Below are positions 23,091 through 39,139 of a stretch of DNA of 64,000 nucleotides, piece by piece. Below the pieces are notes generated by a model. It had not been told where the DNA came from, did no database searches, and saw nothing but the letters and a program-made list of their open reading frames with translations. Source of the stretch: Martelella radicis (GTDB lineage: Bacteria; Pseudomonadota; Alphaproteobacteria; Rhizobiales; Rhizobiaceae); the NCBI RefSeq assembly GCF_014196625.1, contig NZ_JACIDZ010000011.1, forward strand, positions 1 to 64,000, read 5' to 3'. Position 1 is the stretch's first letter. Each line of letters opens with the position of its first letter. The translations under genes and the position numbers were made by a program.

Positions 23091-23798
23091 TCAGGCCCTG
23101 CCGTGTGCCGCCCAAAGCGCCCCGCGGCGGATGATCTCGGTCACCTGCGGCACCTGCAGATCGGCCAGTTCATGGCCGATGGAGCAGTAGAAAACGCGGC
23201 CCTTGTCCCAGCGGCGCTTCCACACGACGGGGATGACGGTGCCCTCGATCCACCAGAGATGATCGCCGGAAAAGGTCGTGGTCGCCAGAACCTCATTGGA
23301 GGGATCGGTCAGCATGTAATATTGCTCCGATCGCAGCCGGAAACTCCTGATGCCCTCGACGATCGGATCGGCCGGCCGGCAGATCGTCACGTCGTAGTCG
23401 ATATAGTCCTCGCGCGGCTGCAGGTTGTCAGGCCAGCCGGGCGGGTGGGCGACGAACTGGCCGCCGATGAGGAAGTGATAGGTCGGGCGGTCGCGGAAGG
23501 CATCGCCCATATGCCCGTGCCAGCCGGCAATGCCGCAGCCATTGCCGATCAGCTTCAGCAGGCCGTCCTCCTGCGGCTTGGTCATCGTGCCGAATTCTTC
23601 GCGGTGGCCGGAGCGCGCCGATGACCAGATCGGGGTGATGAGGTCGATGCCGGCAAGGTCACCTGGGCGTTCGAGCGGCTCCATCGTGTCGTAGACATCG
23701 ACGCTGAAGCCGTTTTCCTTGAGCAGATCGGCATACCAGTCTGAGAATTCGCTCGGCGCGTGGCCTTCCCAGCCACCGACAAACAGGACTGCCTTCAT
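23091..23798 (-). CDS. ThuA-like (glutamine-amidotransferase fold) protein of a sugar operon
   Basis: A 235-residue protein of the ThuA family, first described in the trehalose-utilisation locus of rhizobia. It has the N-terminal strand KAVLFVGGWEGHAP, the segment GIAGWHGHMGDAFRD and VFYCSIGHE near the end. ThuA proteins have a flavodoxin-like amidotransferase fold; in rhizobial ThuAB they take part in forming keto-sugars. Last gene of the operon that starts at 30079; its start overlaps the dehydrogenase stop by ATGA. Confidence 0.75.
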   Translation of the reverse strand: MKAVLFVGGWEGHAPSEFSDWYADLLKENGFSVDVYDTMEPLERPGDLAGIDLITPIWSSARSGHREEFGTMTKPQEDGLLKLIGNGCGIAGWHGHMGDAFRDRPTYHFLIGGQFVAHPPGWPDNLQPREDYIDYDVTICRPADPIVEGIRSFRLRSEQYYMLTDPSNEVLATTTFSGDHLWWIEGTVIPVVWKRRWDKGRVFYCSIGHELADLQVPQVTEIIRRGALWAAHGRA

Positions 23799-24664
23799 GT
23801 CTGTTCCTTTCGCATGAAATTGAGGATTGAGGCCATGTCGCGGGCGCCATAGCCGGCGCGCTCGGCCTCAGTCAGTTTCTCGAGTGTCACAAGCCCCTGC
23901 GGCATCGCGGTGCCGAGCCTTTCGGCCAGCGCCGCCGTGACGGCCATGTCCTTGCGGGCAAGGGCAACCGTAAATGTCACGTCATGGGCGGTTTCATCGA
24001 GATAGAGCGGGCGGCGGTATTTCAGCATCGGAGCCGCCGCCGCCGAGGCCTCGATCACGTCGAAGGCCGCTTCCGCCTGAATGCCTGCGGCCTCCGCAAG
24101 CGTCATGGCTTCGGCGAGCGTCTGGTTGATGCCGTGGAGCAGGGAATTGACGGAGAGCTTCATCACCGCGCCGCGGCCGCTTTCTCCGAGGAAGATGGTC
24201 CTTTTTCCGAGCGCATCGAACACCGGACGGAGCGGCGCGCCGGTCTCGGCGTCGCATCCGGCCATGATCAGGAGGGCTGCATCTTCGGCCGCCTGGGTCG
24301 CGCCGGAAACGGGCGCATCGATCATAGTTGCGCCGTCTGGAACTCGGGTGGCAAGGCTTTTGATATGGTCGGGGCTCATCGTGCCCATTTCGACAAACCA
24401 TCGCGCGCGCTTGCCGGAAAACAGCCCGTCCTCGCCAAAATGCACGGTATCGGAGGCGGCATCATCCGCCAGCATGGTGATGACGATGTCGGCATCATCC
24501 GCCAGGTCCCGCGGCGTTTCAGCCGCGCGGGCGCCGGTCTCCGTCGCAAAGCTCGTCGCCTTGCCGGCGGAGCGGTTCCAGACGGTAACATCATGTCCGG
24601 CGCGCACCAGATTGCGCGCCATCGCCGCGCCCATGCGGCCAAGCCCTGCAAATCCGATCCGCAT
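23795..24664 (-). CDS. NAD(P)-dependent beta-hydroxyacid dehydrogenase
   Basis: A 289-residue member of the 3-hydroxyisobutyrate dehydrogenase family: nucleotide motif GFAGLGRMGAAMARNL, substrate motif DAPVSGATQAAE, catalytic-lysine region GAVMKLSVNSLLHG, and C-terminal KDMAVTAALAE. Its start overlaps the ATPase stop (TGATG), so it belongs to the sugar ABC operon. It probably acts on a sugar-acid intermediate of the transported substrate. It is a paralogue of the gene at 21410 but clearly diverged from it. Confidence 0.82.
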   Translation of the reverse strand: MRIGFAGLGRMGAAMARNLVRAGHDVTVWNRSAGKATSFATETGARAAETPRDLADDADIVITMLADDAASDTVHFGEDGLFSGKRARWFVEMGTMSPDHIKSLATRVPDGATMIDAPVSGATQAAEDAALLIMAGCDAETGAPLRPVFDALGKRTIFLGESGRGAVMKLSVNSLLHGINQTLAEAMTLAEAAGIQAEAAFDVIEASAAAAPMLKYRRPLYLDETAHDVTFTVALARKDMAVTAALAERLGTAMPQGLVTLEKLTEAERAGYGARDMASILNFMRKEQT

Positions 24665-26175
24665 CAGCCCGCCTTCTCAACCTCGAGGCCGGAAATGGCC
24701 TGGATCAGCTTGTCTTCGGAAACCTCTTCGGCGGTGAAGATCTCGGTGATCCGGCCGCTATACATGGCGACGATCCGGTCGGAGACATGCAGCACTTCCG
24801 GCATTTCCGAACTGATGACGATTACGGCATAACCCTGGCGGGCAAGCGCGCGGATGAGGTTGTGGATCTCGGATTTCGAGCCGACATCGATGCCGCGCGT
24901 CGGCTCGTCCACGATCAGGATATCGGGATGCATGGAGAGCCATTTGCCGATGACGATCTTCTGCTGGTTGCCGCCGGAAAGATTGCCCGCGAGTTGCCGC
25001 CAACCGGGCGTGCGGATATCGAGCTTGTCGCGATACTGGTCGAAGATGGCGATCTCCGCGCCGTCCGAGACGAAAGGCCCGGCGGTCAGATCGCCGACCT
25101 GCGGCAATGTCATGTTGTCGCGGCAGTTCATGCCGAGCACCAGGCCCTGGCCCTTGCGGTCCTCCGGCACCAGCGAGATGCCGTTCCTGATCGCGTCGAT
25201 CGGTGAATGCAGCTTCACCGACTTGCCCTGCAGCAGGATGCGTCCGCCGCTCGGCTCGCGAAGGCCGAAGAGCGTTTCGGCGATTTCCGTGCGGCCGGCG
25301 CCAACAAGGCCGTAAAAGCCGACGACTTCGCCCCTTCGGACATCGAAGCTGATATCCCGGAACAGCCCGTTGCAGGAGAGGTTCTCGACAGCGAGCGCGA
25401 CCTCGCCCAGCTGTACATGCTCGTGGTTGCGGGTAAGGTCGAGCGAGCGGCCGATCATCAGCTGGGTGATCTCGTCCTCGTTCGTTTCCGCCGTCACCAG
25501 CGTGCCCCGGCACTCGCCGTCGCGCAGAACGGTGATGCGGTCGGTGATGTTGAAGATCTCCTCCATGCGGTGGGAGATGTAGATGATGCCGACGCCCTGG
25601 GCCTTCAGGTCGGCGATGACATCGAAGAGCACGACCTTTTCCGCATCCGTCAGCGAGGCGGTCGGCTCATCGAAGATCACGGCCTTGGCCTCGACCGTCA
25701 GGGCGCGGGCGATTTCCACCATCTGCTGGTTGGCGATGGAGAGTTCGCCGACGCGGGTTTCCGGCGTAAAGCCCGTCCTCAACTTGTCGAGGATGCATTG
25801 CGTGTCGTCATGCAATCGCTTCCAGTCGACAAGGCCGAAGCGCTTCAGCGGCAATTCGCCGAGGAAGATGTTTTCCGCCACCGTCAGCTCGGTTGCGAGG
25901 CTGAGCTCCTGGTGAATGAAGACGACGCCCTTCGATTTCGCCTGCAGCGGCGAGGTCATCACCACCGGCTGCTCATCGATCAGGATGCGGCCGTCGTCCG
26001 GCTGGTGGATGCCGCCGAGCACCTTCATCAGCGTTGATTTGCCCGCGCCGTTTTCGCCGACAAGCGCGTGGACCTCGCCGGGGCGAATGTCGAGCGAGAC
26101 GCCGTCGAGCGCGCGCACGCCCGGAAAGGTCTTGACGATATTGTCGAGCCTCAGCGCCGGTTTGATGTCACTCAT
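24664..26175 (-). CDS. Sugar ABC transporter ATP-binding protein (RbsA/MglA type)
   Basis: A 503-residue double ATPase of CUT2 importers. Domain 1 has Walker A GENGAGKST (40-48) and an intact Walker B (AVIFDEPTASL). Domain 2 has the degenerate P-loop GLVGAGRTEIAE and a Walker B ILIVDEPTRGI, as usual for RbsA/XylG. The start overlaps the stop of the preceding permease gene (ATGA). Partners are the permeases at 26172 and 27184 and the binding protein at 29117. Confidence 0.88.
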   Translation of the reverse strand: MSDIKPALRLDNIVKTFPGVRALDGVSLDIRPGEVHALVGENGAGKSTLMKVLGGIHQPDDGRILIDEQPVVMTSPLQAKSKGVVFIHQELSLATELTVAENIFLGELPLKRFGLVDWKRLHDDTQCILDKLRTGFTPETRVGELSIANQQMVEIARALTVEAKAVIFDEPTASLTDAEKVVLFDVIADLKAQGVGIIYISHRMEEIFNITDRITVLRDGECRGTLVTAETNEDEITQLMIGRSLDLTRNHEHVQLGEVALAVENLSCNGLFRDISFDVRRGEVVGFYGLVGAGRTEIAETLFGLREPSGGRILLQGKSVKLHSPIDAIRNGISLVPEDRKGQGLVLGMNCRDNMTLPQVGDLTAGPFVSDGAEIAIFDQYRDKLDIRTPGWRQLAGNLSGGNQQKIVIGKWLSMHPDILIVDEPTRGIDVGSKSEIHNLIRALARQGYAVIVISSEMPEVLHVSDRIVAMYSGRITEIFTAEEVSEDKLIQAISGLEVEKAG

Positions 26176-27173
26176 ATCCTGAGCTCCCCTCTGCCCTTGC
26201 GGTTCAACTGGCGGTCCAGAAACAGGACGGCGATGAGAATAAGGCCGATCACGAGATTGACGGTTTCGGTATCCGCGCCGATATAGCCGAGGCCCTTGCG
26301 CAGAAGCTGGATGGCGATGACGCCGCCGAAGGTGGAGAGGATCGAACCCGAACCGCCGGCAAGCTTGGTGCCGCCGAGGACCACCGCCGTGATCGCCCAC
26401 AATTCATAAAGCTCGCCGTCATTGGGGTTCACCGAGCCGCTTTCGGAGTAGAACACCACGGCGCTCAATGCCGCGAGAAAGCCGATCAGGATGAAATTGC
26501 GCAGGAAATGCGGCCCGACGCGAATGCCGGCATTGATCGCCGCCTCGCGATTGTCGCCGATCGCATAGGCATTGCGGCCATGGACCGTCTTCGTCATCAC
26601 CAGCCAGATGATGGCAGTGACGGCGAGGAAGAACCAGCTTGCGGTGTGGATGCCGAGAAACTGCGCTTCGGCGAAATCAACCAGCGTCCAGTTAAGGTGT
26701 GAGGTCGGGTTCTCGCCATTATACATGAACACCAGGCCGCGATAGCCGAGCATGGCGCCGAGCGTGACGATGAAGGCGTCGACGCCCGTCTTCCAGACGA
26801 TGAGGCCGTTGAGGCCTCCGAGGACGGCGCCCGTCAGAAGCGCCAGCGCCCAGGAGATCGGGATCACCCAGTCGCCGAGGCCTGCAAAGACCGGCCATGT
26901 CATCGAATCCAGCATGACGATCCCGGCAAGCGCGAAGGTCGCGCCAACGGAAAGGTCGATATTGCCGTTGATCATGATCACCGTCATGCCGATGGCGATG
27001 ATGCCGATCGGGACCGACTGCTTCAGAAGCAGCAGCATGTTGTCGAAATCCATGAAGGCGGTGTCCGACAGCGACAGGAAGTGCCCGGCGACGGAGAAGA
27101 AGATCAGTTCGACGAGGATGAAACCCCAGATCGCGCCCTGCTTGATGTATTTGCTGTAGCTCTGGCTGGTCAT
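26172..27173 (-). CDS. Sugar ABC transporter permease (RbsC type), second subunit
   Basis: A 333-residue inner-membrane permease with about eight to ten hydrophobic segments. Family blocks include MINGNIDLSVGATFALAG and VHGRNAYAIGDNREAAINAG. Two ATGs lie 6 bases apart (27179 and 27173); GAGGAG ends immediately before the first, so only the second has proper spacing. Forms a heterodimer with the permease at 27184, from which it is separated by 10 bases. Confidence 0.87.
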   Translation of the reverse strand: MTSQSYSKYIKQGAIWGFILVELIFFSVAGHFLSLSDTAFMDFDNMLLLLKQSVPIGIIAIGMTVIMINGNIDLSVGATFALAGIVMLDSMTWPVFAGLGDWVIPISWALALLTGAVLGGLNGLIVWKTGVDAFIVTLGAMLGYRGLVFMYNGENPTSHLNWTLVDFAEAQFLGIHTASWFFLAVTAIIWLVMTKTVHGRNAYAIGDNREAAINAGIRVGPHFLRNFILIGFLAALSAVVFYSESGSVNPNDGELYELWAITAVVLGGTKLAGGSGSILSTFGGVIAIQLLRKGLGYIGADTETVNLVIGLILIAVLFLDRQLNRKGRGELRI

Positions 27174-27183
27174 GGTCATCTCC

Positions 27184-28158
27184 TCACGCAATCGGCGACC
27201 AGAGACGGCCGCGCTTGGCGGCGATATCGAGCCAGACCGCAAGAATGATGATCACCCAGGTGACGACATACTGGACGTAGAACTGCAGGCCGGCGAGCAG
27301 AAGTCCATTCTGGATAAAACCAAGGATCAGCACGCCGATGACGGTCTTGAACACGGTGCCGGATCCGCCGAGCAGCGATGCGCCGCCAAGGATGACGGCC
27401 GCCAGAACCTCCAGTTCCATGCCCTGGCCGACCGTGTTCTGGCTGCCCAGCGAGCGGCTGGCCTGGATGAGGCCGGCGGTCGCCACGCAGAAGGAGGAGA
27501 TCAGATAGGTGAAGAACACGATACGGGCGCGCGGAATGCCGGAAAAGGTTGCCGCGACCCCGTTGCCGCCGACGGCATAGACCTTGCGGCCGAAGGGCGT
27601 CTTGGCGAGCAGCAGGGCAAGCACGATGGCCAGACCCGCGAAGATGACGATCGGGGAGGGGATGCCGAGAATGTCGCCCTGGCCGAAGACGGAAAACCAG
27701 GTGCCTTCCTTGTCGGCGATGTCCATGTTCTTGCCGCCGGAATAGGTCAGCGTCAGCCCGTAGATCGCCGACAGCATGCCCAGCGTGACGATCAGCGAGT
27801 TGAGCCGGAGGTAGCCGATCAGGAAGCCGTTGAAGGCACCGAGCGCCAGCGTCATCGCATACATGGCCGGAATGCCGAGAACCGGGCCGAGCCTGTCATG
27901 CAGGTCGAGCACGACAATGGTGGAAAAGGACATCATCGAACCGACGGACAGGTCGAGATTGCCGCCGATGACGACGAAGGTGACGCCGAGCGCGATGACG
28001 CCCAGAATGGCCGAGGAGCGGATCACGCCCAGAATATTGTCCGGCGCAACAAAGCGCTGGTTGATCAGGGCAAAGCCGATCATGAACACCACGAAGGCGA
28101 TCAGGATCCCTTGCCGGGCCAGCAATGCGCCCACATCTTTTCGCGTAAAATTCGCCAC
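27184..28158 (-). CDS. Sugar ABC transporter permease (RbsC type), first subunit
   Basis: A 324-residue membrane permease with the conserved segments VIGGNLDLSVGSMMSFS and FGRKVYAVGGNGVAATFSGI. It probably starts at GTG (28158), preceded by GGGAGGAG. Having two different RbsC-type permeases in one operon, instead of a homodimer, resembles RhaPQ- and AI-2-type systems. Substrate unknown. Confidence 0.87.
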   Translation of the reverse strand: MANFTRKDVGALLARQGILIAFVVFMIGFALINQRFVAPDNILGVIRSSAILGVIALGVTFVVIGGNLDLSVGSMMSFSTIVVLDLHDRLGPVLGIPAMYAMTLALGAFNGFLIGYLRLNSLIVTLGMLSAIYGLTLTYSGGKNMDIADKEGTWFSVFGQGDILGIPSPIVIFAGLAIVLALLLAKTPFGRKVYAVGGNGVAATFSGIPRARIVFFTYLISSFCVATAGLIQASRSLGSQNTVGQGMELEVLAAVILGGASLLGGSGTVFKTVIGVLILGFIQNGLLLAGLQFYVQYVVTWVIIILAVWLDIAAKRGRLWSPIA

Positions 28159-28228: not shown

Positions 28229-29026
28229 TCAGACCAGCGTCATGCCGCCGTCGATCATGACCACCTGCCCGGTCATGTAATCGCTGTCGGGCGAGGCGAG
28301 AAAGGTGGTCGTGCCGGTAATGTCGTCCGGCCGGGCCACCTTGCCGCGCAGAATGTCGGCGGAAAATTCGGCCATGGCCTGGCCGGGCTTCTCCGCCGCG
28401 CCGATCTCCATCAGGTCGCGGTCGACCTGTTCCCACATTTCCGTTGCCACCACGCCGGGCGCAAAGCCGGTTACGGTGATGTTGTGTTTGGCCAGATCGC
28501 GCGCGCCGGACTGGATCAGCGATATCACGCCCGCCTTCGATGCGCAGTAGGGGGCGACATTGTCGAAACCCTGCCTGCCGGCGATCGAGGTCGTGTTGAT
28601 GATCTTGCCGCCGGTCTTCTGGCTGATCATCTGCCGCGCCGCCTCCTGCATGCCGATCAGGCAGCCGAGACCGTTGACGGACATGATGAAATTCCAGTTC
28701 TCCTCGGTCACGTCGAGAAAATTCATCGGTCGGTTGACGCCGGCATTGTTGAACTTGACGTCGAGCTTGCCGAAGACCGAGACCGCATGGGCGATCATGG
28801 CGCGCACCTGCTCGCGTTTCGTCACGTCGACGACGGCATGGGTGACCCGCCCGCCGTTTCGCTGCGCCCGCTCGCGATTGTCCTGCGCGACCGCGGCGAT
28901 CTTCTCGGCATTGATGTCGGCAAAGCAGACATCGGCGCCCTCATCCAGAAGCGCTTCGCCGATAGCGCGGCCGATACCGCGCGCCGCTCCCGTCACGATG
29001 CAGGAACGTCCAGAGACACGACCCAC
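28229..29026 (-). CDS. Short-chain dehydrogenase/reductase
   Basis: A 265-residue SDR with the cofactor motif TGAARGIG (12-19), NNAG, catalytic serine in TTSIAG and the YCASK pair. The ending DYMTGQVVMIDGG is typical of classical polyol/acetoin-type SDRs. GTG start at 29026 with GGGAGAGG upstream. Lying between the binding-protein and permease genes, it probably carries out the first oxidation of the imported polyol or sugar. The SDR at 32162, encoded in the opposite operon, shares the ENWxFIMxVN and SDYMTGQ blocks, so the two are paralogues. Confidence 0.85.
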   Translation of the reverse strand: MGRVSGRSCIVTGAARGIGRAIGEALLDEGADVCFADINAEKIAAVAQDNRERAQRNGGRVTHAVVDVTKREQVRAMIAHAVSVFGKLDVKFNNAGVNRPMNFLDVTEENWNFIMSVNGLGCLIGMQEAARQMISQKTGGKIINTTSIAGRQGFDNVAPYCASKAGVISLIQSGARDLAKHNITVTGFAPGVVATEMWEQVDRDLMEIGAAEKPGQAMAEFSADILRGKVARPDDITGTTTFLASPDSDYMTGQVVMIDGGMTLV

Positions 29027-29116: not shown

Positions 29117-30079
29117 TCAGAACACCGGCTTGGTGAACTGGTCCATATTGTCCTGGGTGATCTTCGGCGTGTCGAAATAGTTGAGGAACGGCACGTCCTT
29201 GCCGTCGAGCACGTCGATTGCCGTCTGCAGCGCGGCCTCGGCGTCATCGACCGGCGACTGGTAGATCGAGCCCCAGTAGTCGCCGTTTTCCATGGCCTCG
29301 TAGCCGACGGAGAAGTTGGTCGCGCCGACGAAGATGATGCCATCGCGGCCGGCGGCCTTGGCGGCGTTGAGCGCGCCGACGCCCATATTGTCGTCGCCGG
29401 CATAGACGCCGTCGATATCGTCATATTTCACCAGGAAGGCTTCCATGACCTTCTGCGACTTCTCGCGGTTCCAGTCACCCGGCTGGGTCTCGACCAGATC
29501 GACATTCGGGCAGACCTCCGGAAGGCGATCCTCAAAGCCTTTGGCGCGCTCGATCGCCGTCGTGTAGCCGGGCTGGCCGGAGATCTGCACGATCTTCGCC
29601 TCGTCGGCGATGCCCATCTCCTTGAACTTGTCGCACATGATCTCGGCCGAGCGCGCGCCCTGGGTGATGTTGTCGGGACCTGAGAACGAAGCGACGAAAT
29701 CGAAGCCGGGTTCGGCGATGTTGGAATTGGTGACGATCACCGGAATTCCGGCCTTGTGGGCCTTACGCACGGCCGGAATCACGGCCTCGCCATTGGTCGG
29801 CCAGATGATGATGGCGTCGACCTTCTGCTGGATCAGGTCTTCCACCTGGGCGATCTGACGGGCGACGTCGCCGCCTGCGTCGAGGACAACGGTTTCGACG
29901 TCGGGATTGGCGTCGGCTGCGTTGATGAAGGCCTGCTCATAGGTCGTCTGATAGCTGTCAACGCCGACATTGTTCTGCGTGATGCCGATCTTGTAGCTCT
30001 CGGCGGATGCGGCGCCTGCAAGGGCGAGCCCCGCAATCGCGGTCGTTGCGGCCAAGGTGAGCCTGGCTGAAAATCTCAT
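29117..30079 (-). CDS. Sugar ABC transporter periplasmic binding protein (ribose/xylose class)
   Basis: A 320-residue periplasmic binding protein (Peripla_BP_4 fold) with a signal peptide (1-25, GAASA|ES). Mature blocks: YKIGITQNNVGVDSYQTTYE, VDAIIIWPTNGEAVIPAVRK and GVYAGDDNMGVGALNA, the pentose/polyol-binding layout. AGGAACGG precedes the ATG at 30079. First gene of the operon running to 23091, and divergent from the unusual regulator at 30290. Ligand unknown. Confidence 0.86.
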   Translation of the reverse strand: MRFSARLTLAATTAIAGLALAGAASAESYKIGITQNNVGVDSYQTTYEQAFINAADANPDVETVVLDAGGDVARQIAQVEDLIQQKVDAIIIWPTNGEAVIPAVRKAHKAGIPVIVTNSNIAEPGFDFVASFSGPDNITQGARSAEIMCDKFKEMGIADEAKIVQISGQPGYTTAIERAKGFEDRLPEVCPNVDLVETQPGDWNREKSQKVMEAFLVKYDDIDGVYAGDDNMGVGALNAAKAAGRDGIIFVGATNFSVGYEAMENGDYWGSIYQSPVDDAEAALQTAIDVLDGKDVPFLNYFDTPKITQDNMDQFTKPVF

Positions 30080-30196: not shown

Positions 30197-30244
30197 CTAA
30201 AATATCCAAAATGAATTTTTAATTATCCGTATTGGATTTTTTAG
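30197..30244. promoter_or_regulatory. Candidate operator in the divergent promoter region
   Basis: CTAAAATATCCAA (30197-30209) and TTGGATTTTTTAG (30232-30244) form a 13-bp inverted repeat with one mismatch, 22 bases apart, two helical turns. The spacer is AT-rich. It lies midway between the binding-protein start (30079) and the regulator start (30290). Confidence 0.55.
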
Positions 30245-30289
30245 CGATATTTCAGGATCGCGGTTTTGGACAAATAGGGAGGAGAGCAA

Positions 30290-32116
30290 ATGGCATCGTC
30301 AACGAGGCGCAGACCGGAGCACGGTTTGCCGGGACAGATGAATCAGGATATCGCACAAAATATTCAAAATGGATATGGCGTTGCCGTGGCCGGCGGGGCG
30401 GAGGCACAGACTTCCGTTTCCGCCGAGCTGGAGGCCGTCGTGCGGTTCATGGAAGATGTGTTGGTGGAGGTCGATGACGCCACCACGCCGAATGCGCCGA
30501 ACCCCTATCTGAATATGAGCCTGCATCTTCTGCGCCGGCATCTGGAAGGGCGGATGGTGATCCCTTCATCGATCATCGCGGCCTCCGGCGTGCCCTATGC
30601 AACGGCGACGCGCAAATTGACCGAACTGCTGGAATCGGGCGCGGTCGAGCAGCGCCCGCGTTCAAAATCCGGCAAGAGCGTTTCGCTGCACCCAAGTCCC
30701 GAAATGCTGGACAATTGGTGCCAGCTTGCCCGCCGCATCCATCGGCTGGCGGCCGTGCGTTTCGGCGCCGACGGCTTCACCCAGGAAAATGCCGATTATT
30801 ACTTCGGTGGTTCCTACCAGCCGGGCAAGATGCTGATCGGTCCGCCGCAGGCGCTGCCGACGCCGATGAAGCTTTCCGGGGGCCTGCGCATTCTCGTCCA
30901 TGGCGACCCGACCTTCATGGTGATGAGCAATCTGAAGCGCCAGTTCGAGCATCTGGTCGGCTGCAATATCCACCAGCGCGCCTTTTCCATCGATCGCCTG
31001 CGCGGCGAGGCGCTGCGCAATGCCGAGCGTGCCGTCAGTCGCTATGACCTGATCGCGGTCGACCTGCCCTGGCTCGGCGAGTTCGTGAAGAAGGGCGTCC
31101 TGCGGCCGCTGCCGTCCATCATGGATCTCGACAGGCTCGATCCCGGCGACTTCCACACGGCCGGCTGGCGCGCCGCCCATTGGGACGGTGTTGCCTATGG
31201 CGTGCCGAGCCAGACGACGCCGGAACTGTTTTTCTATCGCCGCGACCTGTTCGCGGAAGCTGCGCTCGAGCCGCCGGAAACGACGGAAGCCGTGCTCGAG
31301 GCCGCAGCCCGGTTGCATGAGCCGCGCATGGGCGTCTATGGCATTGCCTGGAATGCCGCGCGCGGAACGGCGCTCGGCCACACCTTCATGATGACCTGTG
31401 CCGATTTCGGCCAGCCGATCATCAACCTGAACGAGATCGCCGGCGGCTTCGACGCCGACCATCTGGAGCGCGACGATCTTTTTCCGACGATCGATACGCC
31501 GAAGGCGCTCGAAGCCGCGGAATATCTCCTGGCGCTGATGGAATTCTCGCCGCCCGACATCCTGTCCATGTCCTGGTACGAGCGCGTCCGTCCTTACGCC
31601 GAGGGCAAGGTGGCGATGGCCTATGGCTACACGCTGCTTGCGCCCTATTTCGAGCTCGATCCGCAATCGCCCGCCTTCGGCAATACCGGTTACCTGCCGC
31701 ATCCGCACGGACCGGGCGGCACGCCGATCGCGCCCGTCGGCGGCTATGTCTTCGGCGTCCCCGCCAATCTGCCGGAGGAGCGGGTGGACGAGGCGGTCGA
31801 GGCGCTGGTCGCCTTCACCTCGCCGGAAGCGCAGAAACTTTTCATCCAGAACGGCAGCCGCACCGCGCCGCGCTATTCCGTCGGTTCCGATCCGGAGGTG
31901 CGCCGCCTCTCGCCGATCTTCGAGAGCGTCGACCAGATGTCCTGGCGCGACGAGCTGCAGTTCTGGCCGCGCCCGCCGATCCCTGAGATTTCCGACATCA
32001 TCCAGATCTGCGGCCATGAGCTGCACGACATGCTGCGCGGCATCGTCAGTCCGAAACAGGCCCTTTCACGCGCTCAGACTCGCGCGGAAGAGGCCATGCG
32101 AAAACGCGTCACATAG
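30290..32116 (+). CDS. Cytoplasmic winged-helix / solute-binding-protein fusion regulator
   Basis: A 608-residue protein of unusual make-up. Residues about 75-135 look like a MarR/IclR-type winged helix (IPSSIIAASGVPYATATRKL as recognition helix, then a basic wing SKSGKSVSLHP). Residues 197-600 resemble a family 1 ABC solute-binding protein (AHWDGVAYGVPSQTTPELFF, EGKVAMAYGYTLLAP, YVFGVPANLPEE). There is no signal peptide; the N terminus is polar, so the protein should stay in the cytoplasm. GGGAGGAG precedes the ATG. It is divergent from a sugar ABC operon and heads a catabolic operon. I infer a transcription factor that uses a captured solute-binding domain as its ligand sensor. Confidence 0.72.
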   Translation: MASSTRRRPEHGLPGQMNQDIAQNIQNGYGVAVAGGAEAQTSVSAELEAVVRFMEDVLVEVDDATTPNAPNPYLNMSLHLLRRHLEGRMVIPSSIIAASGVPYATATRKLTELLESGAVEQRPRSKSGKSVSLHPSPEMLDNWCQLARRIHRLAAVRFGADGFTQENADYYFGGSYQPGKMLIGPPQALPTPMKLSGGLRILVHGDPTFMVMSNLKRQFEHLVGCNIHQRAFSIDRLRGEALRNAERAVSRYDLIAVDLPWLGEFVKKGVLRPLPSIMDLDRLDPGDFHTAGWRAAHWDGVAYGVPSQTTPELFFYRRDLFAEAALEPPETTEAVLEAAARLHEPRMGVYGIAWNAARGTALGHTFMMTCADFGQPIINLNEIAGGFDADHLERDDLFPTIDTPKALEAAEYLLALMEFSPPDILSMSWYERVRPYAEGKVAMAYGYTLLAPYFELDPQSPAFGNTGYLPHPHGPGGTPIAPVGGYVFGVPANLPEERVDEAVEALVAFTSPEAQKLFIQNGSRTAPRYSVGSDPEVRRLSPIFESVDQMSWRDELQFWPRPPIPEISDIIQICGHELHDMLRGIVSPKQALSRAQTRAEEAMRKRVT

Positions 32117-32161: not shown

Positions 32162-32968
32162 ATGGACCCCAATCGCCTCAAAGGCAAAAACATCCTGATC
32201 ACCGGCGGCGCCCAGGGCATGGGCGCAACCAACGCCGAGCATTTCGCCGAGCAGGGCGCCAATGTCTGCATCGGGGATCTTGACCTCGAACTGGGCAAGG
32301 CGCTCGCCGACAAGATCAACGCCGCCGGCAACGGCCGGGCGATTGCGGTGAAGATGGATGTGACGAGCCGCGATGACAATGAGGCAGCGGTTGCCGCCAC
32401 AGTCGAGGCCTTCGGCATGATCAATGTCGGCCTGTTCAATGCCGGGGTCAACAAGCCGAAATTCTTCATGGACATTGATGAGGACAATTGGGACTTCATC
32501 ATGAACGTCAACACCAAGGGCATGTGGCTCGGCATGCAGGCCGTGGCCCGGCAGATGATCAAGCAGGGCAAGCAGGAGCATGTCTACAAGTTGATCAATG
32601 TCGGCTCGGTCGCGTCGCGCAAACCCCTTTACGATGTGACGGTCTACTGCACCTCGAAATATGGCTGCCTGGCGCTCACCCATTGCGGCGCGGTGACGCT
32701 TGCCGAGCACAATATCACCGTCAACGGCTATGCGCCGGGCGTGGTCAAGACGCCGCTCTGGGCGCAGCTCGACAAGGATCTGGTCGAGATGGGTTTCAAG
32801 CAGAAGGAAGGCCAGGCATTCGAAGACCTCGCGGAGAATGCCCTGGCGCTGAAGAAGGTCTCCTATCCCGACGACGTGAAGGGCACGGCCGCATTCCTCG
32901 CCAGCCACGACAGCGACTACATGACCGGCCAGATGATCCATATCGATGGCGGCTGGGTGATCCAGTAG
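32162..32968 (+). CDS. Short-chain dehydrogenase/reductase
   Basis: A 268-residue SDR: cofactor motif TGGAQGMG, FNAG in place of NNAG, catalytic serine in NVGSVAS, and the YCTSK pair. C terminus HDSDYMTGQMIHIDGGW. It resembles sorbitol, galactitol or acetoin/butanediol dehydrogenases. GGGAGGAG precedes the ATG. Second gene of the operon headed by the fusion regulator, and a paralogue of the SDR at 28229 in the divergent operon. The pair could catalyse successive oxidations of one substrate. Confidence 0.85.
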   Translation: MDPNRLKGKNILITGGAQGMGATNAEHFAEQGANVCIGDLDLELGKALADKINAAGNGRAIAVKMDVTSRDDNEAAVAATVEAFGMINVGLFNAGVNKPKFFMDIDEDNWDFIMNVNTKGMWLGMQAVARQMIKQGKQEHVYKLINVGSVASRKPLYDVTVYCTSKYGCLALTHCGAVTLAEHNITVNGYAPGVVKTPLWAQLDKDLVEMGFKQKEGQAFEDLAENALALKKVSYPDDVKGTAAFLASHDSDYMTGQMIHIDGGWVIQ

Positions 32969-33044: not shown

Positions 33045-34343
33045 ATGAACCGTGCACTGACACCCAATGTGCTCACCCCGCAGGACCTTCAGCCCAACTG
33101 GAACTGGGAGGGCCGCCTGCCCGCCTGGGGCCATACGTCCGTCGATTTCGAACGTCGCGTCGATCACGACCGGCTGAGGCGCTACCGCCTGTCGCGCACC
33201 CGCCAGGCGCTTAAGAACAGCGATGCCGGCTCGCTGTTGCTCTTCGATGTCAACAATATCCGCTATGTCTCCGCCACCAAGATCGGCGAGTGGGAACGCG
33301 ACAAGATGTGCCGCTTCTGCCTGCTGACGGGCGATGACGCGCCTTACGTCTGGGATTTTGGCTCCGCCGCCGTGCATCACCGCAAGTTCTCCGACTGGCT
33401 GGTGCCGGATCATTGCCGTGCGGGCGTCGTCGGCATGCGCGGCACCATTCCGCCCTCCTTCGGGCTGATGAAAAAATATGCCGAGGAGATCGCCGGTCTC
33501 ATCCGCGATGCCGGCATGGCGGACATGCCGGTCGGCGTCGATTATGCCGAAACCGCCATGTTCGAGGCGCTGAAGGCTGCAGGCATCAACGTGGTCGACG
33601 GCCAGCAGATCATGCTGTCGGCGCGCGAGATCAAGAACTGGGACGAGATCCAGCTTCTGACCCAGGCCGCCAGCATGGTCGACGGCGTCTATCACATGAT
33701 CTACGAGGAGCTGAAACCGGGCGTGCGCGAAAACGAGATCGTCGCGCTGTCCAACAAGATGCTCTACGAAATGGGATCGGATGACGTCGAGGCGATCAAC
33801 GCCATTTCCGGCGAGCGCTGCAATCCGCATCCGCACAATTTCACCGACAGACTTTTCCGGCCCGGCGACCAGGCCTTCTTCGATATCCTCCAGAGCTATC
33901 AGGGCTACCGCACCTGCTACTACCGCACTTTCAATATCGGCCGCTCGACGCCTGCCCAGGTCGATGCCTATGTGAAGGCGCGTGAATGGATCGATGCGTC
34001 GATCGCGCTGATCAAGCCGGGCGTGACCACCGATGTCGTGGCCAAGGCATGGCCGAAGGCGGAAGAATTCGGCTTCCCGGACGAACTGTCCGCTTTCGGC
34101 CTGCAATTTGGCCACGGTCTCGGCCTTGCGCTGCACGAGCGCCCGATCATCTCGCGGGCGGTCTCGCTCGACAATCCGATGGAAATCCAGACCGGCATGG
34201 TCTTCGCGCTGGAGACCTATTGCCCGGCCGCCGATGGCTTCTCCGCCGCCCGCATCGAGGAGGAGGTCGTCGTCACCGACAAGGGGTGTGAGGTCATCTC
34301 GCTGTTTCCGGCAGAAGAACTGCCCATCGCCAACCGGTATTGA
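33045..34343 (+). CDS. M24 (creatinase/aminopeptidase-fold) protein with altered metal site
   Basis: A 432-residue protein with an N-terminal creatinase-like domain (to about residue 190) and a C-terminal pita-bread domain. The usual five metal ligands D-D-H-E-E appear as D280, C291, H357, E390 and E406: the second aspartate is replaced by cysteine in the block GYRTCYYRT. Creatinase itself uses this fold without metal, and DMSP lyase DddP shows it can serve non-peptidase chemistry, so peptidase activity should not be assumed. Its place before E1/E2 genes suggests a small-molecule C-N or C-O hydrolase or lyase. Function unknown. Confidence 0.7.
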   Translation: MNRALTPNVLTPQDLQPNWNWEGRLPAWGHTSVDFERRVDHDRLRRYRLSRTRQALKNSDAGSLLLFDVNNIRYVSATKIGEWERDKMCRFCLLTGDDAPYVWDFGSAAVHHRKFSDWLVPDHCRAGVVGMRGTIPPSFGLMKKYAEEIAGLIRDAGMADMPVGVDYAETAMFEALKAAGINVVDGQQIMLSAREIKNWDEIQLLTQAASMVDGVYHMIYEELKPGVRENEIVALSNKMLYEMGSDDVEAINAISGERCNPHPHNFTDRLFRPGDQAFFDILQSYQGYRTCYYRTFNIGRSTPAQVDAYVKAREWIDASIALIKPGVTTDVVAKAWPKAEEFGFPDELSAFGLQFGHGLGLALHERPIISRAVSLDNPMEIQTGMVFALETYCPAADGFSAARIEEEVVVTDKGCEVISLFPAEELPIANRY

Positions 34344-34354
34344 GGCGGGATGTC

Positions 34355-35338
34355 ATGAGCGCTTCAGACAACAAGCATAACCGCGAGGACTATCTGCGCA
34401 TGTACCGGCAGATGGTCCGCATCCGCACCTTCGAGGATAATGCCAACCAGCTTTATCTCTCCGCCAAGATGCCGGGGCTGACGCATATGTATTCCGGCGA
34501 GGAGGCGGTTGCCGTCGGCATCTGCGAGGCGTTGACCGACAGCGACCGGATCACCTCCACCCATCGCGGCCACGGCCATTGCGTTGCCAAGGGGGCGGAG
34601 TTTCAGGCGATGTTCTGCGAACTCCTCGGCAAGGAGGAAGGCTATTGCCGGGGCAAGGGCGGATCGATGCATATCGCCGATCAGAGCCACGGCAATCTCG
34701 GCGCCAATGCCATCGTCGGCGGCTCCATGGGCATTGCCACCGGGTCGGCGCTCCGGGCGAAGCTGCAGAAATCCGACGACGTGACGGTCTGCTTCTTCGG
34801 CGACGGGGCGACGGCGCAGGGTCTTCTGTACGAGGTGATGAACATGGCGGCGCTTTGGAACCTGCCGGTGATCTATGCCTGCGAGAACAACGGCTATTCG
34901 GAGTATACGAAAACGGCCGAGATCGCCGCCGGTTCGATCACCGACCGGGCGCGGGCCTTCGGCTTCGAGGCCTTCGAGGTCGACGGTCAGGATGTGCTCG
35001 CCGTCAACGAGCTTGCCCGCGAACTTGCCGGGCGTTGCCGGCGGGGCGAGGGGCCGTTCTTCATCGAGCTTCAGACCTATCGCTATCACGGCCACCATGT
35101 GGGCGACATCAACCGCGAATATTACCGCTCCAAGGCCGAGGAGAAGGAGTGGAAGGAAAACCGCGATCCGATCGAGAAATTCTCGAAGTGGCTGACCGGC
35201 GAGGGGATCGCCTCGAAGGAAGAGCTTGAGAGCCTGAAAAGCGAGATCCGGGACGATGCCGCTGCCGCCGTCGACTATGCGCTGAAGGCGAAATACCCGG
35301 ACGCGCGCGAAGTCGACATGCATGTCTTTGCGGACTGA
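34355..35338 (+). CDS. 2-oxoacid/acetoin dehydrogenase E1 component, alpha subunit
   Basis: A 327-residue thiamine-diphosphate-dependent E1 alpha subunit (PdhA/AcoA family). The TPP motif runs from GDGATAQGLLYE to CENN (about residues 149-181), with the phosphorylation-loop-like segment RYHGHHVGD. With E1 beta it decarboxylates a 2-oxoacid or cleaves acetoin and transfers the acyl group to a lipoyl domain. The ATG at 34355 follows GGCGGGA; a TTG at 34340 would overlap the M24 stop. Acetoin or another hydroxyketone is favoured by the neighbouring SDR and aldehyde dehydrogenase, but this is inference. Confidence 0.86.
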   Translation: MSASDNKHNREDYLRMYRQMVRIRTFEDNANQLYLSAKMPGLTHMYSGEEAVAVGICEALTDSDRITSTHRGHGHCVAKGAEFQAMFCELLGKEEGYCRGKGGSMHIADQSHGNLGANAIVGGSMGIATGSALRAKLQKSDDVTVCFFGDGATAQGLLYEVMNMAALWNLPVIYACENNGYSEYTKTAEIAAGSITDRARAFGFEAFEVDGQDVLAVNELARELAGRCRRGEGPFFIELQTYRYHGHHVGDINREYYRSKAEEKEWKENRDPIEKFSKWLTGEGIASKEELESLKSEIRDDAAAAVDYALKAKYPDAREVDMHVFAD

Positions 35339-35350
35339 GGAGGAAAACCC

Positions 35351-36346
35351 ATGCGAAAGATCACGCTTTCCCAGGCCGTGAACGAGGCGTTGGCGGAGGA
35401 ACTGCGCCGCGACCCCACGACCTTCATCATCGGCGAGGATATCGCCGAGGCCGGCACGCCGTTCAAGGTCTTGTCCGGTCTTGTCGAGGAGTTCGGAACC
35501 GAGCGGATCATCGACACGCCGATTGCCGAGCCGGGCTTCATGGGCCTTGCCGTCGGCGCGGCCATGACCGGTTCGCGGCCGATCGTCGACCTGATGTTCG
35601 GCGACTTTCTGTTCCTGATCATGGATCAACTCTGCAACCAGGCGGCCAAGATCCACTACATGTCCGGCGGCAAGCTCAACGTGCCGCTGGTGGTGCGCAC
35701 CAATCTGGGAGCGACGCGGCGCTCGGCCGCCCAGCATTCCCAGTCGCTGCATGCGCTTGTCGCCCATATTCCGGGGCTAAAGGTGGCGTTGCCGTCCTCC
35801 GCCTATGAGGCCAAGGGGCTGATGAAGACGGCGATCCGCGACAACAATCCGGTCGTCATCTTCGAAGACAAGCTGATGTATAACGACAAGGCCGAGGTGC
35901 CGGAGGAGGAATATCTGATCCCCTTCGGCGAGGCCGCGATCCTGCGCGAGGGTCGCGACATCACGCTTGTCGCGACGTCTTCCATGGTGCAGGTGGCACT
36001 GGCTGCGTCCGACCTCCTGGCAAAGGACGGGATTTCGGCGGAGGTCATCGATCCGCGCACCATCGTGCCGCTGGACGAGGAAACCATCCTCAACTCGGTG
36101 AAGAAGACATCGCGGGCCATGGTGATCGACGAGGGGCACCAGAGCTTCGGCATCACCGGCGAGATCGCCAGCCGCATTTCCGAGAAGGCCTTCTATCATC
36201 TCGATGCGCCGGTGCTGCGCATGGGGGCGATGGATGTGCCGGTACCCTTCTCGCCGGCGCTTGAGGACATCACCGTGCCGACGCCGGAACGGGTGGCCGA
36301 AAAGGCGCGGCTTGCAGTCGGCGGGGAGCTTTTCCATGCCGCATGA
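35351..36346 (+). CDS. 2-oxoacid/acetoin dehydrogenase E1 component, beta subunit
   Basis: A 331-residue E1 beta subunit (PdhB/AcoB family), with GEDIAEAGTPFKV, DTPIAEPGFMGLAVGAAM and the C-terminal transketolase domain (VIDPRTIVPLDEETI, VIDEGHQSFG). Twelve bases after E1 alpha with a clear ribosome site (GAGGAGGAAAACCC). Its end overlaps the E2-scaffold gene by 11 bases, so the complex subunits are translationally coupled. Confidence 0.88.
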   Translation: MRKITLSQAVNEALAEELRRDPTTFIIGEDIAEAGTPFKVLSGLVEEFGTERIIDTPIAEPGFMGLAVGAAMTGSRPIVDLMFGDFLFLIMDQLCNQAAKIHYMSGGKLNVPLVVRTNLGATRRSAAQHSQSLHALVAHIPGLKVALPSSAYEAKGLMKTAIRDNNPVVIFEDKLMYNDKAEVPEEEYLIPFGEAAILREGRDITLVATSSMVQVALAASDLLAKDGISAEVIDPRTIVPLDEETILNSVKKTSRAMVIDEGHQSFGITGEIASRISEKAFYHLDAPVLRMGAMDVPVPFSPALEDITVPTPERVAEKARLAVGGELFHAA

Positions 36347-37691
36347 GGTGATAATGCCGGCGCTCGGCATGGCACAGGATACCGGCAAGATCGTCCGCTG
36401 GCTGAAGAAGAGCGGCGAGCCCGTTTCTTCCGGCGAGGCGATCATGGAGGTGGAGACCGACAAGGCGGTGATGGAGGTCGAGGCCGAGGCCGGCGGCTTT
36501 CTGAGCGCCGTATCAGCCGGTGATGGCGAGGATGTGCCGGTCGGCTCCGTCGTTGCCGTGATCGTCGAAAACGAGGCTGACGTTCGGGAAGCCGTGTCCG
36601 GAGCGCCTGAAGCGCTTGAAGCGAATGCGGAGGAGCACGAGGGTGAGGCTGATGAAGAACCCCTGCCGGAGGGCGCGGAGATCATCATGCCCGCGCTCGG
36701 CATGGCGCAGGACACCGGGCTCATCGTCAACTGGTGCAAGGACGCAGGTGACAAGGTTTCTGCAAGCGACATCCTGCTGGAAGTCGAGACCGACAAGTCG
36801 GTGATGGAAGTCGAGGCCGGCCATGACGGCTATGTCGCTGCTATTCTGGCAGATGCCAGCGAGGCCGTTCCCGTCGGCTCGGTGATCGCCGTGATTTCGG
36901 CGGAAAAGCCGGAAAGGCCGGTGCGGCGCAGCGCCAAAGCCGCGCCTCAGCCACAGGCGGCACCTGCCGCAAAAGCGGAAGACGCGGCTTCAGACAACAG
37001 CAATGCTCCGTCGAAGCCCAAGGGGCCAGCGAGACCCGTCGCTCCGGTCGAAGGCCGTATCCTCGCCTCGCCGAAAGCGCGGCGGCTGGCGCGGGAGCAG
37101 GGCCTTGATCTGACGCGGCTCGCCGAGGAGGGCGTGGCCCAGCCCTATCATGTGTCCGACCTTGAAACCTTGCGCGGACTGGGCGCACGGGTAGGCACTT
37201 CGCCTGCTGCTGCCCCGGCGAACCTGCCGCTGCATATCGAGGCGCGGGTTCCGGCTTCAGGCTTTGCGGCCCTGCTGGACTGGCTGCGAAAGGAGACGAC
37301 CGATGCGCCGTCATCGTCCCGGATCTGGCTCGGCTTCGCCTCCGCCGCCCTGCGCAGCGCCGATGCGAGGGAGAGGATCGTCGTTGGGATCGACGCGCCG
37401 GGCTCCGGCGTCGCGCGCTTTGTCGATGCGGACCGCAAGCGCCTTGGCGCGACACTTGAGGAAACCGAAGACGGTGAGGCGGACATCATCCTGCGCGACC
37501 TGACGGGCTCTGCGGTGATCCGCGCGACGGCCCGGGCCGAAACGGCGCCGGTCCTGACCATCGGTCGCGACCGCGAGGATTTTCTCATCGGCTTCGACTA
37601 CCACGACAGTCAGTTGAACGAGGCGGCGGCCCTTGCCTTTGTCACCGGGTTCGCCGGGCGTCTCGAAGAGCCGCTGCGGCACCTTCTTTGA
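36336..37691 (+). CDS. E2-like scaffold: two lipoyl domains, E3/E1-binding domain, degenerate acyltransferase domain
   Basis: A 451-residue protein. Lipoyl domain 1 (residues 2-80, lipoyl-lysine K43 in EVETDKAVMEVEA) and lipoyl domain 2 (115-189, K154 in EVETDKSVMEVEA) are followed by an Ala/Pro linker (191-240), a peripheral-subunit-binding domain (242-277, ILASPKARRLAREQGLDLTR) and a short C-terminal region (about 295-451). That region ends like an E2 core (AGRLEEPLRHLL), but the catalytic HxxxDG box is lost: FDYHDSQLNEAA stands at its place. It is therefore probably inactive as acyltransferase and resembles eukaryotic protein X. The missing activity is encoded at 39140. Confidence 0.82.
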   Translation: MPHEVIMPALGMAQDTGKIVRWLKKSGEPVSSGEAIMEVETDKAVMEVEAEAGGFLSAVSAGDGEDVPVGSVVAVIVENEADVREAVSGAPEALEANAEEHEGEADEEPLPEGAEIIMPALGMAQDTGLIVNWCKDAGDKVSASDILLEVETDKSVMEVEAGHDGYVAAILADASEAVPVGSVIAVISAEKPERPVRRSAKAAPQPQAAPAAKAEDAASDNSNAPSKPKGPARPVAPVEGRILASPKARRLAREQGLDLTRLAEEGVAQPYHVSDLETLRGLGARVGTSPAAAPANLPLHIEARVPASGFAALLDWLRKETTDAPSSSRIWLGFASAALRSADARERIVVGIDAPGSGVARFVDADRKRLGATLEETEDGEADIILRDLTGSAVIRATARAETAPVLTIGRDREDFLIGFDYHDSQLNEAAALAFVTGFAGRLEEPLRHLL

Positions 37692-37707: not shown

Positions 37708-39138
37708 ATGGATTTTACCAATCTCTATATCGACGGAAACTGGCGTGAGGCCGCAAGCAGCGAGCGCTTCGACGTCATCAACCCGGCCACCGAAGAGGTG
37801 ATTGCCTCCGTCGCCTCCGCCGACACCGCCGATGCCGATCTGGCGCTCGATGCCGCCGAAAGGGCGATGGCCGAATGGCAGGCGAAAAAGCCGCGCGAAC
37901 GCTCCGAGATCCTGCGCAAGGCGTGGGAGTTGATGACCGCGCGACTGGATGATTTCGCCCGTCTCATCACGCTCGAAAACGGCAAGGCGCGGGCCGATGC
38001 CATGGGCGAGGCGACCTATGCGGCCGAGTTCTTCCGCTGGTTTGCCGAAGAAGCCGTCCGCGCCGACGGGCTGATCACCCATGCCCCGGCGTCCGGCGCG
38101 CGCATCGTCGTGCAGCACAAGCCGGCCGGCATTTCGGTTCTGGTCACGCCCTGGAACTACCCGGCCGCCATGGGCACGCGCAAGATCGCGCCGGCGCTGG
38201 CGGCAGGCTGCGCGGTGATCATCAAGCCGGCGACGGAAACGCCGCTCACCATGCTGGCGCTGATGCCGCTTCTGGAAGAAGCGGGCGTGCCCAAGGGGCT
38301 CGTCAACGTTCTGCCGTCGAGACATTCCGGCCGGATTGTCGACCACATGCTGCATGATCCGCGCGTGCGCGTGGTCTCCTTCACCGGATCCACCGGCGTC
38401 GGGCGCACCTTGCTCAAATCGGCTGCCGATCAGGTGGTCAAGCCGGCGATGGAGCTTGGCGGCAACGCGCCGCTGCTGGTCTTCGAGGATGCCGATATCG
38501 ACAAGGCGGTCGCAGGCGCCATGCTGGCGAAGATGCGCAACCTCGGCGAGGCCTGTACGGCGGCAAACCGGTTCTACATTCATGAAAAGGTCAGCGCGGA
38601 ATTCACGGAAAAATTCACCGCCGCCATGGCCGCGCTGAAACTCGGCAACGGGCTGGAGGATGGCATCGATGTCGGGCCGCTGGTCAACGCATCGACCCGT
38701 GACAAGGTCGCTGGATTCGTCGAGGACGCCGTATCGAAGGGCGCGAAAATCGAGCTTGGCGGCAGCCGGCCGAACGGCAAGGGGTTTTTCTATCCCCCGA
38801 CCGTGCTGTCCAACGTGCCGGAAACCGCCGACTGCGTGCATGACGAGATCTTCGGTCCCGTCGCGGCGCTGCAGACCTTCAGCGACGAGGAAGACGTGAT
38901 CCGCCGCGCCAATGACACCGAATATGGGCTGGTGGCCTATGTTTTCTCCGAGGACATGAAGCGCGCCATGGGCGTCTGCGAACGGCTGGAATACGGCATG
39001 GTCGGCCTCAATCGCGGCCTCGTCTCCGATCCTGCGGCGCCCTTCGGCGGGGTCAAGCAGTCCGGGCTCGGGCGCGAGGGCGGGCATGAGGGCATGCTTG
39101 AATTCATGGAAACCCAGTATATCTCGGCGGAATGGTGA
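37708..39138 (+). CDS. NAD(P)-dependent aldehyde dehydrogenase (succinate-semialdehyde type)
   Basis: A 476-residue aldehyde dehydrogenase with catalytic C283 (GEACTAANR), general base E249 (MELGGN) and cofactor loop FTGSTGVG (225-232). Overall it resembles GabD-like enzymes. It lies between the two E2-related genes, 16 bases after one and 1 base before the other, so it is part of the same transcript. Acetaldehyde from acetoin cleavage, or a semialdehyde, are possible substrates. GGAG precedes the ATG at 37708. Confidence 0.86.
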   Translation: MDFTNLYIDGNWREAASSERFDVINPATEEVIASVASADTADADLALDAAERAMAEWQAKKPRERSEILRKAWELMTARLDDFARLITLENGKARADAMGEATYAAEFFRWFAEEAVRADGLITHAPASGARIVVQHKPAGISVLVTPWNYPAAMGTRKIAPALAAGCAVIIKPATETPLTMLALMPLLEEAGVPKGLVNVLPSRHSGRIVDHMLHDPRVRVVSFTGSTGVGRTLLKSAADQVVKPAMELGGNAPLLVFEDADIDKAVAGAMLAKMRNLGEACTAANRFYIHEKVSAEFTEKFTAAMAALKLGNGLEDGIDVGPLVNASTRDKVAGFVEDAVSKGAKIELGGSRPNGKGFFYPPTVLSNVPETADCVHDEIFGPVAALQTFSDEEDVIRRANDTEYGLVAYVFSEDMKRAMGVCERLEYGMVGLNRGLVSDPAAPFGGVKQSGLGREGGHEGMLEFMETQYISAEW

Positions 39139-39139
39139 C

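Follow-up and report, generated by a model that had tools for sequence, protein, structure and literature searches.

A gene in the 64,000-nucleotide stretch of Martelella radicis DNA analysed here (the window) lies between an ABC importer and a set of catabolic genes, and its product carries a predicted DNA-binding head in front of a sugar-receptor domain. This raises the question of whether the protein is an exported transport receptor or an intracellular regulator. It is probably (at a probability of roughly 0.78) a one-component transcription factor that would bind phased DNA dyads through a winged helix-turn-helix (wHTH), sense through a cytoplasmic receptor domain, and control the importer and catabolic operons together. 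The features of the locus are summarized in Table 1.

Table 1. Features of the regulator locus (window coordinates).
Feature	Position	Strand	Remarks
ThuA-domain protein	23091..23798	-	
3-hydroxyisobutyrate-dehydrogenase-like oxidoreductase	23795..24664	-	
Sugar ABC ATPase, CUT2 type	24664..26400	-	listed start probably too early
ABC permease 2	26172..27242	-	relatives annotated ABC transporter permease; listed start probably too early
ABC permease 1	27184..28158	-	relatives annotated ABC transporter permease
SDR oxidoreductase	28229..29026	-	Pfam scan
CUT2 (RbsB-like, class I) periplasmic receptor, divergent	29117..30079	-	N-terminus MRFSARLTLAATTAIAGLALAGAASA resembles a signal peptide
Predicted operator O1	30204..30216		ATCCAAAATGAAT; 1 mismatch to ATCCANNNTGGAT
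Predicted operator O2	30225..30237		ATCCGTATTGGAT; 1 mismatch to ATCCANNNTGGAT; 21 bp from O1
Half-site TTGGACA downstream of O2	30266..30272		agrees with columns conserved across 61 loci (ttG.ACA)
Regulator gene: MarR-like wHTH and cytoplasmic SBP_bac_1 domain	30290..32116	+	608 aa
Predicted intragenic operator O3	30362..30374		ATTCAAAATGGAT; 137 bp from O2; encodes I-Q-N-G-Y
MarR-like winged-helix domain (residues 41-158)	30410..30763	+	AlphaFold, Foldseek, alignment
Recognition helix (residues 103-116)	30596-30637	+	T105 and R108 the same in all 27 family rows
Conserved linker (residues 159-195, DYYFGGSY..I.PP)	30764..30874	+	alignments
Family-1 solute-binding domain (residues 197-604)	30878..32101	+	Pfam, sequence alignment, Foldseek
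SDR oxidoreductase	32162..32968	+	acetoin reductase and L-iditol 2-dehydrogenase are the best curated models, neither reaching its cut-off
M24 family protein	33045..34343	+	DddP is the closest curated model, well short of its cut-off
E1 alpha (TPP-dependent, 2-oxoacid/acetoin dehydrogenase type)	34340..35338	+	
E1 beta	35351..36346	+	
E2 lipoyl/E3-binding part	36204..37691	+	listed start probably too early
Aldehyde dehydrogenase	37711..39138	+	
E2 catalytic-domain-like protein	39086..40045	+	relatives: 2-oxo acid dehydrogenase subunit E2 / dihydrolipoamide acetyltransferase

The domain architecture, a MarR-like winged helix joined to a full family-1 receptor, is confirmed. Pfam SBP_bac_1 (PF01547) matches residues 252–516 with an E-value of 8e-27 (95.4 bits against a cut-off of 26), and exceeds its cut-off in all eight further family members scanned. 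SBP_bac_1 and SBP_bac_8 were the only receptor models found in the regulator by the Pfam scan at E≤1, and SBP_bac_5 was not matched. The HTH region falls below the Pfam thresholds in the regulator itself (HTH_IclR, E 0.07; TrmB, E 0.15; MarR_2, 12.9 bits against a cut-off of 27). MarR_2 is matched at E≤1 by 14 of 15 family members (best 2e-5), and one member passes the HTH_IclR cut-off (22.6 vs 22 bits). No NCBIfam model reaches its cut-off for the regulator or for five relatives scanned.

An AlphaFold model of residues 44–195, calculated from an alignment of 63 sequences, has a mean pLDDT of 82.9, with 89–98 in the ten-residue blocks spanning the winged helix. Most of the 50 Foldseek matches shown for this model are MarR-family structures with probabilities of about 1.00, and all E-values are above 0.001 (best 0.0019). 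The original prediction had placed a DNA-binding winged helix at about residues 75–135; the predicted structure contains it, with the HTH core refined to about 72–135 inside a MarR-like domain (about 41–158) that has long flanking helices. The full-length model is of moderate quality (pLDDT 67.6, with residues 424–431 and 522–559 below 50). Its best Foldseek matches are 5iai (E 4e-23) and 1eu8 (E 5e-20), each with a TM-score of 0.71 by target and an rmsd of about 9 Å over 423–427 columns. Both are 23% identical, and the sequence alignment of 5iai covers residues 199–601. The full-length family 1 solute-binding domain, previously assigned to residues 197–600, is now assigned to 197–604.

A scan of bacterial genomes found 261 relatives, and the best 80 of these (62–97% identity) were kept. 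By record titles they are mostly Rhodobacterales, together with Stappia, Roseibium, Mesorhizobium and others, and the best match (97%) is from Martelella lutilitoris. Plasmid records hold 34 copies of the regulator, two of them from Paraburkholderia, with identities of 34–68% in the 30 listed. The regulator was found in 12 of 61 related genomes and in six of 398 genomes of a phylum sample (own genome included in both), one of the six being from another class. In a class sample of 385 genomes, the wHTH profile was matched at E≤1e-8 in 19; eight of these hold true members (E<1e-35, own genome included), and the remaining 11 have the wHTH in proteins resembling response regulators. Absences from the class and phylum samples are provisional, since scoring was limited to the top few candidates in each genome. 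Overall, the family spans three or more alphaproteobacterial orders, reaches at least one genome outside that class, and is also present in 1.4-Mb genomes. Alignments of 28, 63 and 15 sequences were built; three loci with a stop in frame as cut (L012, L014 and L054) were omitted from the protein alignments and kept in the operator scan. In a tree of 27 regulator rows and eight other receptors, all 27 rows form one clade separate from the other receptors (92/99, below the mark for well supported). Given this support and the long branches of the eight outside receptors, a single fusion event behind all regulator rows is likely rather than proven.

The gene had been described as divergent from an ABC sugar operon and as the head of a catabolic operon, and both placements hold among the relatives. 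The same RbsB-like receptor gene of the CUT2 importer is divergent to the regulator in 80/80 loci. An SDR gene comes next after the regulator in all 80 (in L067, after the second regulator copy), and 72 loci have M24 downstream, 66 E1 alpha; contig ends truncate several loci, and seven of the eight loci without M24 end 912–1200 bases after the match. In the 385-genome sample, M24 lies within about 7 kb of the regulator in 8/8 regulator-bearing genomes. M24 was found at E≤1e-100 in 14/385 genomes, giving a hypergeometric co-occurrence of 3e-13 for genomes that are not phylogenetically independent. Six of the 14 M24-bearing genomes are without the regulator, and in the three of these six that were read, no match to the window transporter lies within the 17–18 kb covered.

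More distant members were examined in the 30–50% identity range. One from Agrobacterium adjoins Gfo/Idh, isomerase and ABC importer genes. Members from Rhizobium, Sinorhizobium and Loktanella (L091, L092 and L093) all have 2,3-butanediol-dehydrogenase-like and Gfo/Idh genes nearby, to which L091 and L092 add genes for intradiol dioxygenase and maleylacetate reductase; the neighbours of this subfamily would perhaps fit a cyclitol-to-hydroxyquinol route. The 1.4-Mb genomes have a distant regulator with transporter, SDR, M24 and E1 genes. On a Skermanella plasmid (L089:10907-17282), recombinases, a Mu-type transposase, TniB and TniQ lie directly 3' of the regulator, and the catabolic operon is absent from the stretch shown. 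In Phaeobacter inhibens P92 (L126), the complete cluster is carried on a 61-kb plasmid.

The predicted operator consists of two copies of a 13-bp dyad, ATCCANNNTGGAT, that lie 21 bp from each other in the divergent promoter. Dyads were counted in the DNA separating the receptor match from the regulator match in each of the 80 loci, some of which extends into N-terminal coding sequence. Perfect copies number 32, where dinucleotide shuffles predict 0.05, and one-mismatch copies 65, where 1.65 are predicted. At least one dyad with ≤1 mismatch is present in 63 of the 80 loci and none in 17; in the divergent stretches of L024, L040, L051 and L066, no dyad was found even at ≤2 mismatches. Dyad starts are exactly 21 bp apart in 61/80 loci at ≤4 of 20 mismatches (the loci not being phylogenetically independent), and each of the other spacings from 13 to 32 accounts for 0–10 of the 80. 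A chance origin of the dyads was rejected on these counts and on this spacing. With ≤3 mismatches allowed, the 4.99-Mb genome contains a single match to the pair and none to a reversed control pattern. Single dyads are weakly enriched in the window (six against 1.84 expected, a number reached by 4 of 100 shuffles); the evidence for the operator is therefore the pair and its conservation. These paired dyads are a likely operator, newly described here, and their conserved phasing adds evidence that the regulator is DNA-binding. With a predicted operator, regulons become searchable and the pathway testable.

A third site was sought in 73 of the 80 loci, the seven omitted having a best pair with 7–8 mismatches. 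A copy with ≤1 mismatch lies 60–200 bases after O2 in 17/73 loci, compared with none in ten control zones, and a copy with ≤2 mismatches in 42/73, compared with 0–6/73 per control zone. The best third site is 137–139 bp past O2 in 37 loci and 84–85 bp past it in eight, distances of about 13 or 8 turns of DNA; in the other 28 of the 73 loci it is at neither distance. The glycine codon within the 137–139 bp site is GGA in 37/37 placeable loci, compared with 428/3802 (11%) of glycine codons in the same genes, which, for loci that are not independent, points to constraint on the DNA.

Dyads were also followed to distant or rearranged loci. The homologue from another class (about 50% identity) has kept the pair with two mismatches; in Skermanella (50%), three dyads with one mismatch each precede the regulator at spacings other than 21 bp. 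At L130 (40–42% identity, rearranged gene order), the only two perfect dyads in 19 kb (0.02 expected) lie between SDR and receptor, on the transporter/SDR side, and before M24. In L067 (8001-15597) the regulator is present twice, the first copy preceding the transporter and the second SDR/M24; upstream of the second is the one perfect dyad of this locus, and upstream of the first are weaker ones. Two 1.4-Mb genomes have ATTCANNNTGAAT and two rhizobial genomes ATCCGAAACGGAT at matching places, which is weaker evidence because AT-rich DNA makes dyads by chance. Near the regulators of L090, L093 and L102, dyads are weak, different or not clear, and the pair is not clearly present.

These features suggest the following mechanism. 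A dimer of the MarR-like wHTH would bind the 13-bp dyads at the divergent promoters, with sites phased on one face of the DNA as the 21-bp pair and often a third site at or inside the regulator start. The complete CUT1-type receptor half would remain in the cytoplasm as a sensor and close on an imported polyol, sugar or derivative; closure would alter the wHTH dimer and change its DNA binding. The transporter and catabolic operons would thereby be switched together, with autoregulation and possibly looping between sites. The one-component regulator of the original prediction is supported by its architecture, divergent place and conserved dyads, with two refinements: the SgrR/DsvR precedent for its plan, and the origin of the sensor. 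Derivation from the receptor of the adjacent transporter was rejected, because that receptor is of the class-I RbsB type and the two receptor classes differ.

The sign of control was guessed from the site positions and the wHTH type, and the promoter elements, inspected as conserved columns and −35/−10 matches, are too weak to fix it. O1 and O2 would overlap the probable promoter of the regulator between −35 and −10, and O3 is intragenic; this arrangement resembles those of repressors, and MarR-type wHTHs are mostly repressors. Repression relieved by ligand thus seems somewhat favoured over activation. An SgrR-like activator, with ligand switching on the divergent operons and self-repression exerted via O2 and O3, is a tentative alternative against which these two considerations count. 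It would be consistent with the conserved −10-like element xATACT downstream of O2 and its poor −35 matches, and SgrR itself, which negatively auto-regulates, is termed a transcriptional activator in a reference title within the accessible text of PMC13060122.

It is improbable that the dyads serve another regulator and that the protein has a binding or buffering role in the cytosol, its wHTH being vestigial. Such a role would agree with the sub-threshold HTH scores of the window protein, whose DNA binding is a prediction, and other candidate regulators occur nearby: a MarR gene in the window (40080-40607) and a LacI regulator at the G142 locus (L103). The window MarR gene, however, was matched in none of the 80 loci, most of which stop about 8 kb after the regulator, near its place, and two longer annotated clusters (L094 and L126) list no adjoining MarR gene. 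No gene named LacI is found in the annotated stretches examined, some of which hold regulators of other families. Moreover, recognition-helix residues T105 and R108 are unchanged across 27 rows with identity down to 30%, and the dyad goes with the regulator gene in rearranged and duplicated contexts.

The absence of a signal peptide, claimed originally for the regulator alone, was assessed as the highest mean Kyte-Doolittle hydrophobicity over 15 residues within the first 45, with starts chosen by script. The value is 0.77 for the regulator, in which no signal peptide was recognised by this measure; the median for 77 homologues is 0.17, and the neighbouring RbsB-like receptor scores 1.87. The five most hydrophobic homologue N-termini (1.17–1.48) reach just into the range of six other receptors (1.47–1.94); two further receptors score low (0.01 and 0.28) and look wrongly started. 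An export signal is thus not recognisable overall among the homologues, the highest of the 77 values being 1.48. A sequencing-error fusion of separately encoded halves was likewise ruled out, as relatives are encoded by 261 of 268 candidate stretches, and in the 80 retained the match spans both halves. That the protein is an exported receptor with a miscalled start or a two-gene artefact is scarcely credible: the automatic annotation and those few more hydrophobic N-termini are outweighed by the mostly non-hydrophobic N-termini, the ATG shortly preceded by a good Shine-Dalgarno sequence (AGGGAGGAG), and a wHTH that stays in frame with the receptor half throughout the 28 and 63 aligned sequences. 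Among the 30 listed plasmid copies, 26 are annotated: 25 as 'extracellular solute-binding protein' and the remaining one as 'ABC-type sugar transport system, periplasmic component'. The 'exported sugar receptor' of databases is most likely an intracellular gene switch between importer and breakdown genes; as the family is mostly listed publicly under exported transport receptors, catabolic regulators would be hidden and receptor counts inflated.

Several known systems resemble the regulator in part. LacI/GalR proteins, which sense sugars, also place a DNA-binding head on a periplasmic-receptor fold, combining a LacI HTH with a class-I Peripla_BP domain; neither domain was matched in the regulator at E≤1 by the Pfam scan. 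MarR-family proteins share the winged helix with flanking helices, and MarR_2 is the Pfam model that most family members match; however, the matched MarR structures are mostly about 130–160 residues long with no separate sensor, whereas the regulator adds a receptor of about 400 residues. The importer receptors 5iai (Arad_9887), 1eu8 (TMBP) and 4rya (AVI_3567, named sorbitol) have the fold of its receptor half at 21–23% identity; in contrast to them, the regulator has a wHTH and no recognisable signal peptide. Putative response regulators of the REC-wHTH type from other Alphaproteobacteria (L113-L123 and L125) carry a related wHTH (profile E-values of 1e-8 to 1e-11 per genome, e.g. SGVPQTTALRRI), but their other domain resembles a receiver domain by eye, unlike the receptor half here.

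The nearest precedent in plan is Vibrio cholerae DsvR, a homologue of Escherichia coli SgrR, with an N-terminal HTH and a C-terminal SBP_bac_5 domain according to the accessible text of PMC13060122. Membership of the SgrR family was rejected, the regulator having SBP_bac_1 instead of SBP_bac_5 and no SgrR_N domain. The genome contains a single SgrR_N (PF12793) match, elsewhere (C3) and below cut-off (E 0.22); of 14 named control genomes, seven gave a match, two of them above cut-off. The original prediction regarded a MalE-like family 1 domain in a soluble regulator as rare and the class as possibly poorly described. SgrR and DsvR, as far as that source text extends, are a precedent for the general plan; no description of a wHTH-SBP_bac_1 regulator was found in the open-licence papers searched. 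There is, in our estimate, an even chance that the family is a new, widespread alphaproteobacterial class of one-component regulators with three properties: a MarR-type head on a complete CUT1 receptor that is never exported; an unrelated CUT2 class-I receptor that reads the same substrate outside the cell, so that two receptor folds would serve one nutrient across the membrane; and a helically phased multi-site operator reaching into its own coding sequence, which would have shaped the N-I-Q-x-G motif. If the regulator reading is true, MalE-type ABC receptors, much used in engineered sensors, also act naturally as intracellular DNA-binding switches.

The receptors nearest to the regulator by sequence include the sorbitol-named 4rya and sugar-binding ones (trehalose/maltose, 1eu8). 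5iai is a ribitol complex, and 5hko, 4rs3 and 4rsm, the nearest structures to the importer receptor, are polyol complexes. These matches make a polyol the first candidate ligand. The two SDRs, the M24 protein, the acetoin-type E1/E2 and the aldehyde dehydrogenase suggest a route in which a polyol would be oxidised to an alpha-hydroxyketone, which would then be cleaved and oxidised. The substrate was not identified from solved structures for the receptor, M24 and E1 alpha, nor in the literature searched, including the accessible part of PMC8938411.

The M24 protein scores 118.7 bits against the DddP model (cut-off 600). Its second metal-ligand region reads RTCYYRTF, which differs from the M24 motif, and this 'peptidase' may be a lyase or another non-peptidase. 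Between 36204 and 40045, the E2 of an acetoin/pyruvate-type complex appears to be divided over two genes, one for a lipoyl/E3-binding protein and one for an E2-like protein, which flank the aldehyde dehydrogenase gene. The Phaeobacter cluster additionally contains lpdA.
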